DNA of 64,000 bases from Gallionellaceae bacterium. GTDB lineage: Bacteria > Pseudomonadota > Gammaproteobacteria > Burkholderiales > Gallionellaceae. Positions 3,906 to 30,793 of this stretch are shown here, piece after piece. The position numbers and the translations under genes are program-made. The first letter of the stretch is position 1, and every line of letters starts with the position of its first letter. The notes below the pieces were generated by a model. The model did not search any database, was not told where the DNA came from, and worked only from the letters and a program-made list of their open reading frames with translations. The stretch lies in NCBI GenBank assembly GCA_009885195.1, contig VFLG01000035.1:1-64000 (forward strand), written 5' to 3'.

Positions 3906-5006
3906 GTGCTGAATAACCCAGGTATTTATACAGGCATCATGTCCGGCACCAGCCTGGACGGCATTGATGCCGTGCTGGTTGATCTCTCCACCAGCCAGCC
4001 CAGGCTGATCGCCACCCACTATCAACCTTATCAACAGACTCTAAAAAATGCGCTGTTGCTATTGCACCAGCCGTCCAGCAACGAATTGCATCAGGCGCAA
4101 ATGATCAGCAATGAACTGGCGCGCGAGTATGCATCAGCCACGCTGGCGTTGTTGCAAACAGCCAACGTAACCCCCGATCAAGTGCGCGCCATTGGCTGCC
4201 ACGGCCAGACCATACGCCATCGTCCCGACCAGGGCTACACCCTGCAATTAGGCAATGCCGCGCTGCTGGCCGAATTGAGCGGCATTGCTGTGGTGAGCGA
4301 TTTCCGCAGCCGCGATATTGCCGCAGGAGGGCAGGGCGCCCCGTTGGTTCCTGCCTTTCACGATCAGGTATTGCGCCATCCGGGCATTCACCGCGTCATC
4401 GTCAACATCGGCGGCATCAGCAACCTGACTGACCTGCCACCCGGCCGCCCCACCACCGGCTTCGACTGTGGGCCGGGCAACTTATTGATGGACGCTTGGA
4501 TTGCCCGGCATTGCGGCGAGCCTTATGACCGGGAAGGTGCTTGGGCCGCCAGCGGCCAGGTCATTCGGACATTGTTGCAGGCGTTTCTGGATGAACCGTA
4601 TTTGCGCGCCGAACCACCGAAAAGCAGCGGTCGCGACTTGTTTAATCAGGCTTGGCTGAATAACAAACTGCATGGCAACGAAGCGCCCGCCGATGTGCAA
4701 GCCACGCTGCTCGCGCTCACCGGCCATGCGATTGTTGACGCGATTCATGGCTACTGTGCAGGCGCGCAAGAGATATATTTGTGCGGCGGTGGCGCGCATA
4801 ACCTGGCTTTGGTGCAGCGCTTGCGCGCATCTTTGCCGGATTGCCGCATCCTGACTACCGATACGCTGGGCATGGGAGCCGATTGGCTGGAAGCCATCGC
4901 CTTTGCCTGGCTGGCCCAACAAACCATGTGCGGCCATAGCGCCAACCTGCCTGCCGTCACAGGCGCGCACCATCCCTGCATACTCGGCGCAATTTATGCG
5001 GCATAA
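3906..5006 (+). CDS. anmK: Anhydro-N-acetylmuramic acid kinase (GTG start)
   Basis: 366 aa; IMSGTSLDGIDAVLVD, GCHGQTIRHRP, NIGGISNLT motifs. Confidence 0.95.
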   Translation: MLNNPGIYTGIMSGTSLDGIDAVLVDLSTSQPRLIATHYQPYQQTLKNALLLLHQPSSNELHQAQMISNELAREYASATLALLQTANVTPDQVRAIGCHGQTIRHRPDQGYTLQLGNAALLAELSGIAVVSDFRSRDIAAGGQGAPLVPAFHDQVLRHPGIHRVIVNIGGISNLTDLPPGRPTTGFDCGPGNLLMDAWIARHCGEPYDREGAWAASGQVIRTLLQAFLDEPYLRAEPPKSSGRDLFNQAWLNNKLHGNEAPADVQATLLALTGHAIVDAIHGYCAGAQEIYLCGGGAHNLALVQRLRASLPDCRILTTDTLGMGADWLEAIAFAWLAQQTMCGHSANLPAVTGAHHPCILGAIYAA

Positions 5007-23752: not shown

Positions 23753-25729
23753 TTACGCCTGCGCCGCCGGTTTTGATGCCCCAGCTTTTGATGCCAAGGG
23801 CAGGCGGTAGCGACGATCGCATATAGCCAGCAAGCCGCCGAGCGCCATCAGCAGGGCGCCGCCCCATATCCAGTAAACCATCGGTTTATGCAAGATGCGC
23901 ATGACCCACTCGTCCATGCCCACCTGCTCGCCGAGCGCCAGATAAAGATCGCGGAACAGGCTGGAGTCTATGGCTCCTTCAGTCATGTCTGAGGCCTGCT
24001 TGGTGTACTTGCGCTTTTCTGGATACAGCGTGGCTACTTTGTCATCACCACGCGTTATCTCCACCATCGCCTGAGCCGCAACATAATTCGGCCCTTGCAC
24101 CTCCCGCACCCCGTGGAATTTGAAAGTGTAACCATCCAGCGTGGTCGTGTCGCCGGTGCGCATGCGCACTTCGGTCTCACTTTGGTAACCGTTGACCAGG
24201 GTCACGCCAAGAACAAACACACCTACGCCGGCATGGGCAAGCAACATGCCATATGTGGCGAGCGATGTGGCGCGCAATTTCGCCCACACACCGCTCGCAC
24301 TGGTCGACTCACGCACTCGCGCGACCAGGTAGGCCAGGCCTGCAAGAATCGCCCACATCCCTAGCGCAACCCCCGCCACTATCGGCGCCGACCAACGGCC
24401 AAACAAGTAAGGAATAAGCAAACCTAAAGCTACGCTGGCTACCAGCCACGGCCATACACGCCTCACGATTTGTGCCAGGGTATCCTGTTTCCAACGCGCG
24501 AACGGCCCAAAGCCCATAACGAAAACGGCTACCATCATGATTGGTGCGAATACCGCCTCAAAATAGGGTGGTCCGACCGAGATCTTGCCCATGTTCATCG
24601 CATCCAGGAACAGGGGGTAGAGCGTACCAAGGAACACGGTACCGGCGGCGGCGACCAGCAGCACGTTGTTCAGCAACAGCATGGATTCACGCGAAACCAC
24701 CTCGAACCCGCCGCCCATGCCCACCTTCTGTGCGCGCCAGGCGAACAACACCAGCGAGCCACCGACCACCACGCAAATGTAAATCAGAATAAACAGACCG
24801 CGTGTCGGATCTGATGCAAAAGAATGTACCGATGTCAAAATACCGGAACGCACCAGGAAGGTTCCCAGCAGGCTCAACGAAAAAGCAGAGATAGCCAGGA
24901 TCACGGTCCAGCTCTTGAAAGCGCCGCGCTTTTCCGTCACCGCCAGCGAGTGGATCAGCGCCGTGCCCACCAGCCAAGGCATGAACGAGGCGTTCTCGAC
25001 CGGATCCCAGAACCACCAGCCGCCCCAACCCAACTCGTAATAGGCCCACCAGCTTCCGAGCATGACGCCCAAGGTGAGAAACATCCACGCCACCGTAGTC
25101 CATGGCCGCGACCAGCGCGCCCAGGCAGCATCCAACTGGCCACCGATAAGCGCCGCGACGGCGAAAGCAAAGGCCACCGACATGCCCACATAACCCATAT
25201 ACAGCAGGGGCGGGTGGATGATCATGCCAAAATCCTGCAACTGCGGATTGAGATCAAAACCGTCCAGCGGGCTTGGCAGCAAGCGTTCGAACGGATTAGA
25301 GGTAAACAGTATGAAAGAAATGAAACCGACGCTGACCAAGCCCAGCACACCCAACACACGCGCCACCATCTCTTCCGGCAGGCGCTTGCTGAACAGGGCC
25401 ACCGCTGTCGTCCATCCCGCCAGCATCATCATCCACAGCAGCAGCGAGCCCTCATGCCCGCCCCATACCGCCGCGATGCGGTACTCCAGCGGCAGCAGCA
25501 AATTAGAATGCTGGGCGACGAACTTGACCGAAAAATCGTAAGTAATAAAAGAATAAGCGAAAGTGACGAAAGCAATAATGACACAAGCCATCTGCCCAAA
25601 GACCGCCGGCTTGGCCACCGCCATCAGCCGTTGATTACCATTCAAGCTGCCGAGTATGGGTAATACGCCCAACACCAGCGCCAACACCAGCGCCAGCATC
25701 AGTGAAAAATTGCCGATCTCAGGTATCAT
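23753..25729 (-). CDS. ccmF: Cytochrome c heme lyase CcmF
   Basis: 658 aa; WGGHEGSLLLW, GWGGWWFWDPVENASFMPWL. Confidence 0.97.
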   Translation of the reverse strand: MIPEIGNFSLMLALVLALVLGVLPILGSLNGNQRLMAVAKPAVFGQMACVIIAFVTFAYSFITYDFSVKFVAQHSNLLLPLEYRIAAVWGGHEGSLLLWMMMLAGWTTAVALFSKRLPEEMVARVLGVLGLVSVGFISFILFTSNPFERLLPSPLDGFDLNPQLQDFGMIIHPPLLYMGYVGMSVAFAFAVAALIGGQLDAAWARWSRPWTTVAWMFLTLGVMLGSWWAYYELGWGGWWFWDPVENASFMPWLVGTALIHSLAVTEKRGAFKSWTVILAISAFSLSLLGTFLVRSGILTSVHSFASDPTRGLFILIYICVVVGGSLVLFAWRAQKVGMGGGFEVVSRESMLLLNNVLLVAAAGTVFLGTLYPLFLDAMNMGKISVGPPYFEAVFAPIMMVAVFVMGFGPFARWKQDTLAQIVRRVWPWLVASVALGLLIPYLFGRWSAPIVAGVALGMWAILAGLAYLVARVRESTSASGVWAKLRATSLATYGMLLAHAGVGVFVLGVTLVNGYQSETEVRMRTGDTTTLDGYTFKFHGVREVQGPNYVAAQAMVEITRGDDKVATLYPEKRKYTKQASDMTEGAIDSSLFRDLYLALGEQVGMDEWVMRILHKPMVYWIWGGALLMALGGLLAICDRRYRLPLASKAGASKPAAQA

Positions 25730-26122: not shown

Positions 26123-26305
26123 TCACGTTTTTGTTTTCCGTTTTGTCGTTTTCTTTTCCGTCGGCAGCAGGCTGGTGAGTTGCTGGTAACGCTCGAATAA
26201 AAACTCCACGCGCTGTGCGTCGCTGGTGAAGGCGGCTTTGCGGTAGCAGGCATCCACGGCGCGGTCGTGGGGTGATGTAGTCTTGTTATACGGTTATTGC
26301 ACTTG
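26123..26305 (-). pseudogene. C-terminal scrap resembling a YeeA-like/type IIG class I DNA methyltransferase
   Basis: Minus strand PYNKTTSPHDRAVDACYRKAAFTSDAQRVEFLFERYQQLTSLLPTEKKTTKRKTKT*, with an in-frame TAA immediately upstream. Confidence 0.45.
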
Positions 26306-26324
26306 GTAATTGAAACCGCACACA

Positions 26325-28793
26325 CTATCCCAAAACCGCCACCATCTCCGCTATTACCCTTAGCTCCCCCGCTTCCTGCCCATTCAAAACAATAGGCTCG
26401 TAACCTGGTGATGTTGTATCGGGTTTAAGTATTATTTTTTTGTGCTGCCAGCCGCCATCGTCATGGCTTGATTTTTCGCTCTCATACACTTTGATTGTGT
26501 AGTGGCCACCTGTGTCTATATCATCGATATCCCGATGCTGCACCAATACAACCTTGCCTTGCCGGGTGCCACTCGGCGCAAGTTTAAACAAGCACCATGA
26601 TCCGTTTGGTATACGCCGATTCATTGATTCGCCCACTACTTTTGCTACAAACAACCCGGCTTGGGGTCTAAAAGCCTCCGGTAGCTCTACCCAGTCATAC
26701 TGCTCGATTGCACCATCTTTTGGCACTTCATTTACTTCCTGTGAACCACTGAACTGACCTGCGGCAATCGCCAAGTCATAAATGGGCACGCTGTTCTGGT
26801 AAGGTTTTACATCCTTCGCGTTCAATATTCTTAAAGTTAAACCGGGGAATGTACTGACGACTTCCTGTTGCGCAACATCAAATGTGTGTGCGGTAGCTAC
26901 TTGATCAATAATTTCACTGCTTTCATGTTCCGCACCTATTCGCTCTTTGAAATATGCATTGGTCTCTGGGTCTGTGCAAAAAATGTAACATCCCTTGCTG
27001 CCTCGCGTCATCAAGGTTCTGTATGTATTCTTGATGATGACTTCCGCCTTTTCCTTCGCATCGGCAGGATTTTCCTTGAAAAGTTTTTTGAAGCCCTTGA
27101 TGGATGAATCGGTTTTAGCGCGCTTTTCTGCACTAACTGCTACCCGCCCTTCCCGTACTATAAAATCAGGCCCGATGATTACGCCTACATAATCCATCTC
27201 CAGCCCTTGGCATGTATGGATGCACCCAACCTCAGTGACAGATTCCGGTTTAAGTATCCACAGATTTCCATCGCTTGCCAGATTCCACTTCATCGCAAAA
27301 TCATGTTCTTTAATGGTGATATCTTTTAGCGAATTATCATTTTTGTTTTTACTTATCCAGTCCCAGCAATATCCCGCAACTAGCCGTGCCTTGTTATTGA
27401 TCCGATTCTTTCTGTAGATCGCATCTCGCAGCTCATTTGGCGAATCAAAAACCTTGAAATCATAATTAATTCCGTCCAGCGTTTCATTTGCTGTCTCTTT
27501 TATTTGCAACGAATTGTCCACCCATGCAAGGTAGCCATCTGATCCGTTGCAGCGAAACTGTGATTGCAGCACCAGCTCGTGAACTCGCGCCCCTAATTTA
27601 ATAGCCCACTTTTTGATCTCATCGTTTTCACCAATATCTCGCATCGTCACTCTTTGATCTTCATCAAGAAAAAATATGCTGAATTTAGAGGACGCAATAA
27701 TTTCCTTTATCTGGTTCTCGCCCAAGTTTTGAAACATGCCAGATTTTTCATTGAGCCTGTGCGCTTCATCAACAATAAGCACATCAAATGTGTTCGCCTC
27801 GGTTTCGGTGAATGAGCCAGAGCCTTTGAAGAGGTTGTTGATATGGCTTTTCTTGAAGGAGCCAACCAGCTTGCTGGCGTATACATCGCGGGGTGCGGAA
27901 TTCTTGGTGACATATTGAGCGAGCAGCTGTCTTTTGGTGAACTCGACAAGCAAGTTCACAGCAACAACTGATTTACCGGTGCCAGGCCCGCCTTGAACAA
28001 TCAAAACATGTTTGTTTTTAACTGTGGATTTGTTGGATAGATCTATAGCAGTTTCATAGACAATCTTTTGATCATCTATCATCAAAAACTCTTGATTGCC
28101 TTTAAGCAGGGATTCAAGTTTGTCGGCAAGGTTCTTGGATGGCCTGATCTTGCCGTTATCAATCCGATACATGATGTTATCGGAGTCGCCATATTTGACG
28201 TACTTCTTGATGAATTCAGTGAGCTTCTTTGCATCCTTTCTTAAGAATGCTGGCGCCTTTTCAGTATGCTCATTGTAAAAATGATCATTAATTGCCTCAT
28301 CGGATATGCAGTTATGAAGATATGCACAGGGTTTAAGCAGGATATTTTCTGTTGTTACCGCTTCATTGAAGTCTTCCAGCAATGCGGCATATACCCATGC
28401 CTGATATGACGGGTGGCTAACCTCGCGCACCCCTTTCCCCATAAATGTAGTAACAATGCCATCTTTGCTGGTGGCTTTTGCTTCAGCCCATTGCTTAAGC
28501 TCAATGATGATCGCGGTATTGACCTTATTTTCACCTTTCCCGGTCAAGATAAAATCGATGCGCTTGGAAGTTTGAGGCAGCCGGTATTCAATAGACACAC
28601 CGGCATCATTGGGAATGCCGCCGTCCATAATAATCTGGCTCATATACATCATGGAGTTTCTCCATGATGCTATTTCATTAGCAGATGTTGAATGACCGAG
28701 GTTGCGCTTGAAGGCTTCCAGAATTTTTTCTTCGATGATATTGGACTGGACATCGTCCATGAAATCCAGCTTGTTGGCTGTATAGACCAACAT
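26325..28793 (-). CDS. DUF2075 (Schlafen-type) DNA/RNA helicase with N-terminal PD-(D/E)XK-like region and C-terminal S24/LexA-like domain
   Basis: 822 aa; RIDFILTGKGENKVNTAIIIELKQW; VQGGPGTGKSVVAVNLL; DVLIVDEAHRL; SQFRCNGSDGYLAWVD; HTCQGLEMDYVGVIIGPDF; C-term VAKVVGESMNRRIPNGSWCLFK. Confidence 0.85.
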   Translation of the reverse strand: MLVYTANKLDFMDDVQSNIIEEKILEAFKRNLGHSTSANEIASWRNSMMYMSQIIMDGGIPNDAGVSIEYRLPQTSKRIDFILTGKGENKVNTAIIIELKQWAEAKATSKDGIVTTFMGKGVREVSHPSYQAWVYAALLEDFNEAVTTENILLKPCAYLHNCISDEAINDHFYNEHTEKAPAFLRKDAKKLTEFIKKYVKYGDSDNIMYRIDNGKIRPSKNLADKLESLLKGNQEFLMIDDQKIVYETAIDLSNKSTVKNKHVLIVQGGPGTGKSVVAVNLLVEFTKRQLLAQYVTKNSAPRDVYASKLVGSFKKSHINNLFKGSGSFTETEANTFDVLIVDEAHRLNEKSGMFQNLGENQIKEIIASSKFSIFFLDEDQRVTMRDIGENDEIKKWAIKLGARVHELVLQSQFRCNGSDGYLAWVDNSLQIKETANETLDGINYDFKVFDSPNELRDAIYRKNRINNKARLVAGYCWDWISKNKNDNSLKDITIKEHDFAMKWNLASDGNLWILKPESVTEVGCIHTCQGLEMDYVGVIIGPDFIVREGRVAVSAEKRAKTDSSIKGFKKLFKENPADAKEKAEVIIKNTYRTLMTRGSKGCYIFCTDPETNAYFKERIGAEHESSEIIDQVATAHTFDVAQQEVVSTFPGLTLRILNAKDVKPYQNSVPIYDLAIAAGQFSGSQEVNEVPKDGAIEQYDWVELPEAFRPQAGLFVAKVVGESMNRRIPNGSWCLFKLAPSGTRQGKVVLVQHRDIDDIDTGGHYTIKVYESEKSSHDDGGWQHKKIILKPDTTSPGYEPIVLNGQEAGELRVIAEMVAVLG

Positions 28794-28831
28794 GATATTA
28801 GAGCCGCCTATTGACCAATTTGAAGATCATG

Positions 28832-29182
28832 TCATTTGTACTCGGTATATTTCCTGGAGCTGCCACGGACTTTTTCATGTGGATATTTCACAGCATTGGC
28901 ATCCATCTTTTTGCTTGCCGCGTCCAGCAGGTCAATATTTAGTTTGTCTGCAATTCTAATCAGGTAAATTTGAATATCAGCCAACTCGTCCTGCACTTTT
29001 TTTAATTGTTCTTGCTCAAGCGATCTGGATTGCTCTTCTGTGAGCCATTGGAAATGCTCAACAAGCTCTGCCGCTTCAACTATTAAAGCCATTGATAAGT
29101 TTTTTGGGGAATGGAATTGATCCCAATCCCGATCTTCAGCAAACTGCCGAAGGCGCACTTTAAGTTGCTCAACTTCATTCAT
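28832..29182 (-). CDS. MazG-like nucleotide pyrophosphohydrolase
   Basis: MNEVEQLKVRLRQFAEDRDWDQFHSPKNLSMALIVEAAELVEHFQWL...KVQDELADIQIYLIRIADKL (EAAEL...DELAD all-alpha NTP-PPase motifs). Confidence 0.9.
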   Translation of the reverse strand: MNEVEQLKVRLRQFAEDRDWDQFHSPKNLSMALIVEAAELVEHFQWLTEEQSRSLEQEQLKKVQDELADIQIYLIRIADKLNIDLLDAASKKMDANAVKYPHEKVRGSSRKYTEYK

Positions 29183-29254: not shown

Positions 29255-30793
29255 CTAACTAACCGCGCGCCGCGAAAAATCCTTGGGCCTGAAACCCAGT
29301 GCCCAAAGCACAGAGAAATAAACCACGACACCACCGATAACCAGTACAGACAACCGCAAAATGCGCGACCAGCCCGAACTGGTCAGCCAGCTTTGCTCGC
29401 TGCCCATGCCGAACCACAGCGTGAGCCCCAAAACCAGCATAGCGATGCACACCTTGAGGAAAAATTTCGCCCAGCCCGGTTCGGGTTGGTAGATGCCATG
29501 TTTGCGCAGGTAATAAAACAGGATCGCGGAATTCAGGCACGCGCCCAGGCCGATCGACAAGGCCAGTCCGGCATGTTGTATCCAGCCGATGAACAGCGCA
29601 TTCATCGCCTGGGTCGCCAGCAAGGTGACGATGCCGATCTTCACCGGGGTCTTGATGTCCTGCCGCGCGTAAAAACCCGGCGCGAGTATTTTCACCAGTA
29701 TCAACCCGACCAACCCGATGCTGTAGCCGATCAACGCCCGGCTGGTCATCATGACATCGTGTGCAGAAAACGCGCCGTGTTGAAAGAAGGTCGCCAGCAA
29801 CGGCACGGAGATCATGCCCAGCGCCAGCGCGGCGGGCAGGGTCAACATGATGGTCAGGCGCAAGCCCCAATCCAGCAGCCGGGAATATTCCACCGTGTTG
29901 TTGCTGGCATAGCATTGGGATAGCGAGGGCAGCAAAATCGTGCTGATAGCCACACCCAGAATACCGGTGGGGAACTCCATCAGCCGGTCCGCGTAATACA
30001 GCCAGGACACGCTGCCCGCCACCAGGAACGAAGCGAAGATGGTGTTGATGATCAGGCTGATCTGGGCGATGGACACACCGAATACTGCCGGTCCCATTTG
30101 TTTGATGACGCGCCGCATGCCTGGGTCTTTAAGGCTGAAGCGGATGCTCGGCAACATACCGATTTTTTTCAGGAACGGAATTTGAAACGCGAGCTGCACA
30201 AAACCCGCGATGAACCATGCCCACGCCATACCCATGATAGGCTGGTCGAAATAAGGCACCGCCCACAACGCACCGCCTATCAAACAGGTATTCAAAAGTA
30301 TCGGCGCAAATGCGGGAACCCAGAATTTATTATAGGTGTTGAGTATGCCCGCCGCCACCGCCACCAGCGAGATGAAGAAGATATACGGCGAGGTGATTTG
30401 CAACATCTGCACGGTGAGGTCGAACTTGGCGGCATCTTTAACGAAGCCAGGCGCACTGATGTACACCAGTAGCGGCGCAGCGAGAATGCCGATCAGCGTG
30501 ACCACAAACAGGATAATCGCCAGCATGGTGGTGACGTGATCCACCAGCAGCTTGGTGTCATCGTACCCGCGGCGGTTCTTGTATTCGCCGAAGATCGGCA
30601 CGAACGCCTGAGAAAATGCCCCCTCGGCGAACAACCGGCGTAACAAATTAGGAAGCTTGATGGCCACGAAGTATGCATCCGTCACCATGCCCGCACCGAA
30701 TATCCGCGCGATCAGCACGTCGCGCGTAAACGCGAGGATGCGCGAAACCAGCGTCAGGCTGCTGATGGTACCGAGAGCTCTAAGCAGGTTCAT
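29255..30793 (-). CDS. murJ: Lipid II flippase MurJ
   Basis: 512 aa multi-TM; MNLLRALGTISSLTLVSRILAFTRDVLIARIFGAG, RRLFAEGAFSQAFVPIF. Confidence 0.96.
   Translation of the reverse strand: MNLLRALGTISSLTLVSRILAFTRDVLIARIFGAGMVTDAYFVAIKLPNLLRRLFAEGAFSQAFVPIFGEYKNRRGYDDTKLLVDHVTTMLAIILFVVTLIGILAAPLLVYISAPGFVKDAAKFDLTVQMLQITSPYIFFISLVAVAAGILNTYNKFWVPAFAPILLNTCLIGGALWAVPYFDQPIMGMAWAWFIAGFVQLAFQIPFLKKIGMLPSIRFSLKDPGMRRVIKQMGPAVFGVSIAQISLIINTIFASFLVAGSVSWLYYADRLMEFPTGILGVAISTILLPSLSQCYASNNTVEYSRLLDWGLRLTIMLTLPAALALGMISVPLLATFFQHGAFSAHDVMMTSRALIGYSIGLVGLILVKILAPGFYARQDIKTPVKIGIVTLLATQAMNALFIGWIQHAGLALSIGLGACLNSAILFYYLRKHGIYQPEPGWAKFFLKVCIAMLVLGLTLWFGMGSEQSWLTSSGWSRILRLSVLVIGGVVVYFSVLWALGFRPKDFSRRAVS

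Follow-up and report, generated by a model that had tools for sequence, protein, structure and literature searches.

The window analysed here, a stretch of 64,000 nucleotides from a Gallionellaceae bacterium (assembly GCA_009885195.1, contig VFLG01000035.1), carries between murJ and ccmF two genes on the reverse strand, one encoding a MazG-like pyrophosphohydrolase and the other, which starts 38 bp further downstream, an 822-aa protein in which a putative nuclease, a helicase and an S24/LexA-type tail are fused (Table 1). An earlier reading made from the letters alone (the sequence-only reading) had described two such ORFs, MazG directly upstream on the same strand, in an AT-richer stretch between ccmF and murJ; the ORFs and both flanks were found as described, and the G+C content of the pair's stretch is 42-48%, against 54-59% around it. 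The span then assigned to the pair was right at its high end (29182), while its low end (26123) is the stop of a gene remnant, the helicase gene itself ending at 26325. This remnant, directly downstream of the helicase gene and outside the pair, matches the last part of MmeI_C (PF20467, E 2.6e-8, profile 53-82 of 83) and suggests that the spot once held another restriction gene, and so that the pair may lie in a defence site. Since murJ has other neighbours than ccmF in relatives, no empty insertion site could be demonstrated at murJ. The scan for promoters and terminators gave matches at chance level only, and the repeats around it are just short, chance-like ones.

Table 1. Features of the MazG-helicase locus and its flanks (positions in the window; residues are those of the 822-aa protein unless it is a separate gene)
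Feature	Positions	Strand	Evidence
murJ	29255-30793	-	flank of pair
MazG-like nucleoside triphosphate pyrophosphohydrolase, DCTPP1/RS21-C6 type, 116 aa from ATG	28832..29182	-	PF12643, PDB 6sqw
822-aa nuclease-helicase-S24 fusion protein	26325..28793	-	ORF; full-length homologues at other S24-bearing loci, 49-70% identity
PD-(D/E)XK-like (NERD-like) putative nuclease domain, residues 1-200	28194..28793	-	invariant motifs; predicted core topology
Nuclease motif RIDFILTG...IIELKQW, residues 78-102 (D80, E98, K100)	28488..28562	-	D80/E98/K100 invariant in 14 and 15 homologues
SLFN-g3 (DUF2075) SF1 helicase domain, residues 261-608	26970..28013	-	PF09848, E 9e-111
Walker A GGPGTGKS, residues 268-275	27969..27992	-	GTGK core invariant
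Walker B DEAH, residues 342-345	27759..27770	-	invariant
S24/LexA-type autoprotease-like tail, residues 666-820	26334..26798	-	PF00717 in 10/10 tail homologues; phrog_4; dN/dS
Predicted scissile Ala678-Gly679	26757..26762	-	Gly invariant in aligned tails
Predicted catalytic Ser723 (GESM)	26625..26627	-	invariant in 10/10 tails
Predicted catalytic Lys768 (TIK)	26490..26492	-	invariant in 10/10 tails
C-terminal stump of MmeI-type (type IIL) restriction-modification enzyme, last 43 codons and stop	26123..26254	-	MmeI_C PF20467; tblastn placement
ccmF	23753-25729	-	other flank of pair

Domains of the two proteins

The helicase domain, which the sequence-only reading had assigned to the DUF2075/Schlafen type from its Walker A and B motifs, matches PF09848 (SLFN-g3_helicase) over the whole profile (1-354 of 354; 371 bits, cut-off 24) with the SF1 motifs present, and Walker A, DEAH, QFRC and the C-terminal helicase motifs are conserved among the homologues. 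The full-length AlphaFold2 model (mean pLDDT 74.6) finds human SLFN11 and RecD2-type SF1 helicases as its top fold matches.

In the N-terminal domain E69, R78-x-D80, E98-L-K100 and Q131 are unchanged across alignments of 14-15 homologues and H127 is invariant as well, so that the D...ExK stretch pointed out earlier is a real motif. The NERD HMM matches four of 14 homologues (best 1e-5), with no match in the window protein itself. When residues 1-230 were modelled separately with AlphaFold2 (mean pLDDT 90), the elements followed the order alpha-beta-beta-beta-alpha-beta expected for PD-(D/E)XK, and the third core strand ends in the ExK. A PDB fold search with this domain returned nothing significant, its top match being a restriction endonuclease at E 0.12, and a PDB sequence search with the nuclease alignment gave no useful match; we treat the domain as a putative PD-(D/E)XK nuclease by motif and predicted topology, not by statistical fold match.

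Concerning the C-terminal tail, Peptidase_S24 matches residues 675-771 with 23.3 bits in the whole protein, at the gathering cut-off of 23.3 (E 5e-5), and with 27.5 bits when the tail is searched alone (E 3e-6). All ten tail homologues match the same family (best 2e-11), and in PHROGs the tail matches the phage repressor family phrog_4 (E 5e-9); a PDB sequence search with the S24 alignment gave no useful match. Ala-Gly and Cys-Gly are the two scissile pairs of LexA and UmuD, and in the ten aligned tails the invariant Gly679 follows an Ala in the proteobacterial sequences and a Cys in those of Bacteroides. The S24/LexA-like segment seen by the sequence-only reading is upheld by the family match and by the three invariant residues listed in Table 1. 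The tail in the full-length AlphaFold2 model has a pLDDT of mostly 30-60, and therefore we make no structural claim on the Ser-Lys geometry.

We also evaluated selection on the tail and its presence among relatives. One pair of loci (L019/L024) gives dN/dS values of 0.06 (tail), 0.07 (core) and 0.05 (MazG); taking the pairs together, the tail has ~0.06 in one and 0.12 in another, and nuclease plus helicase 0.05-0.09. The majority of homologues lack the tail, yet they have MazG and all core motifs, and therefore the sensor/autoprotease is dispensable for the core system. L006, the nearest relative of the window's protein (core 83% identical), is without the tail and keeps MazG; the idea that it holds a remnant of a lost tail was rejected, none being found. 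A quick tree made from 40 helicase cores, in which some forks are open, implies at least four state changes of the tail. By these results, the tail is a selected yet optional module, under purifying selection, in a minority branch. No SOS box (at most one mismatch) was found upstream of eight S24-bearing loci. On a Halomonas plasmid (L024, 9893-10387) helicase and tail stand in different frames, through either a natural split or a sequencing error, and the close relative L019 is intact.

The MazG partner matches Pfam MazG-like PF12643 (E 6e-13) and, over nearly the whole protein, dCTP pyrophosphatase 1 in the PDB (6sqw/2a3q, E 2e-23), and the residues of its metal motif E36xxE39...E66xxD69 are invariant in nine pair-associated MazGs, in agreement with the MazG-type pyrophosphohydrolase recognised before. 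This DCTPP1/RS21-C6 type points to dCTP-like substrates. MazG of the DCTPP1 type is present in 30 of 61 relatives' genomes, the helicase in three of 61; being common without the helicase, the enzyme is therefore not defence-specific. Neither the helicase nor this MazG was found in any of the 18 other genomes of the same genus, and thus in this genome MazG most likely arrived with the helicase.

Occurrence and neighbourhood of the pair

Linkage was counted by hand in 38 non-redundant loci (labelled L) taken from genome, plasmid, phage and genome-contig searches, a count that takes in broken helicase frames (L026, L043, L080) and leaves out a viral-contig relative of 27% identity in which an HNH_2 gene stands between MazG and helicase (L015). 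MazG directly adjoins the helicase gene on the same strand in 28 of the 38, usually at a distance of -4 to +59 bp and with some ATGA overlaps, and among these 28 it is nearly always upstream (downstream in two). Elsewhere a single gene separates the two (L035), just a MazG fragment is present (L021/L083), MazG lies several kb from the helicase in the same island (three Hymenobacter loci), or no MazG is found nearby (five loci: L003, L009, L022, L036, L080). The lineages bearing the pair are Pseudomonadota, Bacteroidota, Patescibacteria (L007, L038-L044), Bacillota, where the carrier is a plasmid (L028), and haloarchaea (L023), together with a Microcystis phage record (L025). The DUF2075-MazG linkage, whose conservation across genomes had been suggested as a check, thus recurs across phyla in operon-like form.

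The tree of helicase cores mixes phyla, and the presence of MazG in the locus changes state on it at least six times, again with the reservation that the 40-core tree is quick and some of its forks are open. Occurrence is patchy: 4 of 369 genomes of the window's class, 8 of 396 Bacteroidota and 8 of 287 Patescibacteria (~1-3%), each tally counting the genome that seeded it. About 3% of the sampled Patescibacteria, with genomes of ~0.7-1.1 Mb, carry helicase and MazG, a notable cost. The Microcystis phage record (phage Mwe-JY31, PP438423.1) holds a recombinase-like gene, a TPR gene, MazG and the nuclease-helicase, and may be a mobile element, not a phage.

Relatives of the pair often lie near restriction or other defence genes, by the loci listed here rather than by comparison with matched random genes. 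Type III R-M with DUF4747, SIR2 and DruA are neighbours or occupy the same island, and type I-like R-M neighbours comprise a restriction endonuclease, an N-6 methylase and an S subunit. An Mrr-type restriction endonuclease with a zinc ribbon (4019-4858) lies directly downstream of the S24-bearing helicase of L002, the Hymenobacter islands contain GmrSD, TmtA-like and PDC-M62/PtuA-like genes, and an AAA_15/AriA-like gene is near the pair in L007. In L025 and L081 the genes of TPR proteins immediately precede MazG. An MrcB_N-HNH gene abuts MazG in L028 (4407-5612), HNH_2 genes occur at L036 (565-1494) and at the distant L015 (4887-5879), and the gene of an extra 363-aa protein (413-1501) is next to MazG or helicase in L035; the extra genes at these four loci may be interchangeable modules that serve as sensor or as second nuclease. 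Ordinary chromosomal neighbours are found at L006, L008 and L084. Two different SLFN-g3 helicases stand in tandem, within large defence islands, on Hymenobacter canadensis plasmid unnamed2 (L079) and in L082; the genes in these islands include type III R-M, SIR2 (L079), TPR-MazG and GmrSD (L082).

Relation to known systems

Neither protein has a full-length match in PADLOC-DB 2.0.0. The best match is the candidate PDC-S41 (residues 391-606 to profile 427-623 of 657, E 5.5e-17), whose best matching stretch covers the second helicase lobe only. The Nhi model matches residues 254-416 (profile 192-331 of 470, E 1.4e-11) and the AbiO model residues 233-417 (E 1.1e-11). Nhi of Staphylococcus, which has anti-phage activity, is like the window protein a single-protein helicase and nuclease, with homology confined to the helicase region; the match being partial, the window protein may work like Nhi and is not filed as a member. 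AbiO likewise shares only the helicase region. To our knowledge Nhi lacks both a MazG partner and an S24 tail, and we know of no MazG operon or S24 tail for AbiO. By these profile matches Nhi and AbiO are the closest validated relatives, through the helicase domain only.

A nuclease is coupled with a helicase as effector also in Hna, Hachiman and Gabija (PMC13381803). Hna differs in having an SF2 helicase, a PD-(D/E)XK nuclease at the C-terminus and a single effector, with no MazG or S24 described; its helicase-nuclease is held off and is triggered by phage SSB (PMC13381803). MazG is among the predicted, unvalidated defence domains of DefensePredictor, and the portion of that paper available to us names no DUF2075 partner or S24 tail beside it (PMC13092281). 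The literature on DUF2075 in connection with MazG, anti-phage activity or Schlafen, so far as it was searched, yielded no description of the pair or of the fusion.

LexA, UmuD and phage repressors share with the tail a scissile Ala-Gly or Cys-Gly, a GxSM serine and a downstream lysine; however, they join the S24 domain to an HTH, whereas in the window it is fused to a nuclease-helicase, and Pfam detected no DNA-binding repressor domain in the 822-aa protein. DCTPP1/RS21-C6 resembles the window MazG in its ExxE...ExxD motif and by a near-whole-length match, but the window enzyme, with a predicted dCTP-type substrate, belongs to an operon-like pair with a nuclease-helicase. On the whole, the pair is conserved and probably represents a defence system not described before, although its general kind (helicase-nuclease) is known; a minority branch has in addition an unusual regulatory tail that is putatively self-cleaving.

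Proposed function and alternatives

From the sequences we infer a defence role, gating by the S24 tail and a coupling with the hydrolysis of nucleotides. The defence reading is drawn from the linkage of the two genes, their patchiness, their absence from the 18 same-genus genomes, the low G+C, the plasmid and phage records, the defence neighbours, the invariant motifs and the low dN/dS. The sequence-only reading had envisaged an S24-type sensor gating a nuclease-helicase coupled to nucleotide hydrolysis; its domain calls are supported and its two-gene linkage recurs across phyla, while the S24 part is optional and absent from most homologues. In our preferred reading the two genes form a mobile anti-phage system of nuclease-helicase type, made up of an effector and a dNTP pyrophosphatase, with LexA-type gating in this variant, and we give it about an even chance of being correct. 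Several observations weigh against it: DCTPP1-type MazG is common without the helicase, some helicases have no MazG nearby, the neighbours of L006, L008 and L084 are ordinary, the tail is poorly modelled, no SOS box was found at the eight S24-bearing loci, and the fold search with the nuclease domain was not significant. The helicase-nuclease would load on phage DNA or on abnormal replication intermediates and then degrade them, and MazG would impede the synthesis of phage DNA by withdrawing dCTP or modified dCTP from the pool. In the window's variant the tail would act as an inhibitory or sensing brake on the effector core until a stimulus, for example RecA-ssDNA filaments, led it to cut itself between Ala678 and Gly679 and free the core; tail-less relatives would be gated otherwise, for example by neighbouring TPR, HNH or MrcB-like proteins.

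The same genes could instead form a mobile DNA-repair or housecleaning pair, in which MazG clears damaged or modified dNTPs, the nuclease-helicase processes damaged forks and the tail ties both to DNA damage. LexA-type S24 domains are indeed classic DNA-damage sensors, many relatives have MazG of this type but no helicase, and some loci have ordinary chromosomal neighbours; but the patchy occurrence, the phylum-mixing helicase tree, the carriage on plasmids and in a phage record and the recurrent proximity of restriction genes and other genes of defence speak against this explanation, which we consider unlikely. It is similarly improbable, in our view, that MazG is a protective partner (an immunity factor) keeping the nuclease-helicase off, for instance by removing an activating nucleotide, and not a co-effector: the tight coupling with MazG first is the typical antitoxin-toxin order, yet MazG lies downstream in two loci and a few loci have an intact helicase without nearby MazG.

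The pair might also be a defence system whose tail, instead of being an active switch, serves for dimerisation or partner binding, the effector being gated solely by the structure of DNA or by proteins of the phage such as SSB, as in Hna and Nhi. In favour of this, homologues without the tail retain MazG together with every core motif, and Hna is activated by a phage SSB, while stimulation by phage SSBs is reported for Nhi (PMC13381803). However, every tail has the Ser, the Lys and the scissile Gly, the latter in an Ala-Gly or Cys-Gly pair as in LexA and UmuD, dN/dS is ~0.06-0.12, and the retention of dyad and cleavage pair argues against a mere binding module, which would not need them; we hold a tail of this kind to be rather doubtful.

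Returning to the preferred anti-phage reading, a broader form of it, which we put forward only tentatively, is that of a widely travelled and undescribed bacterial and archaeal immune system, in which a dCTP(-like) pyrophosphatase and a nuclease-helicase core would be combined with exchangeable sensors; in the window's variant the self-cleaving LexA-type domain, being fused to the effector, would turn an SOS-like signal straight into effector activation without transcription. If true, DNA destruction and nucleotide depletion would be linked in one compact operon from haloarchaea to Patescibacteria, and in the S24 branch LexA-type autoproteolysis would act directly on an enzyme, not on a transcription repressor. 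Tailed and tail-less relatives, with cores 83% identical, offer a natural comparison for the role of the tail.
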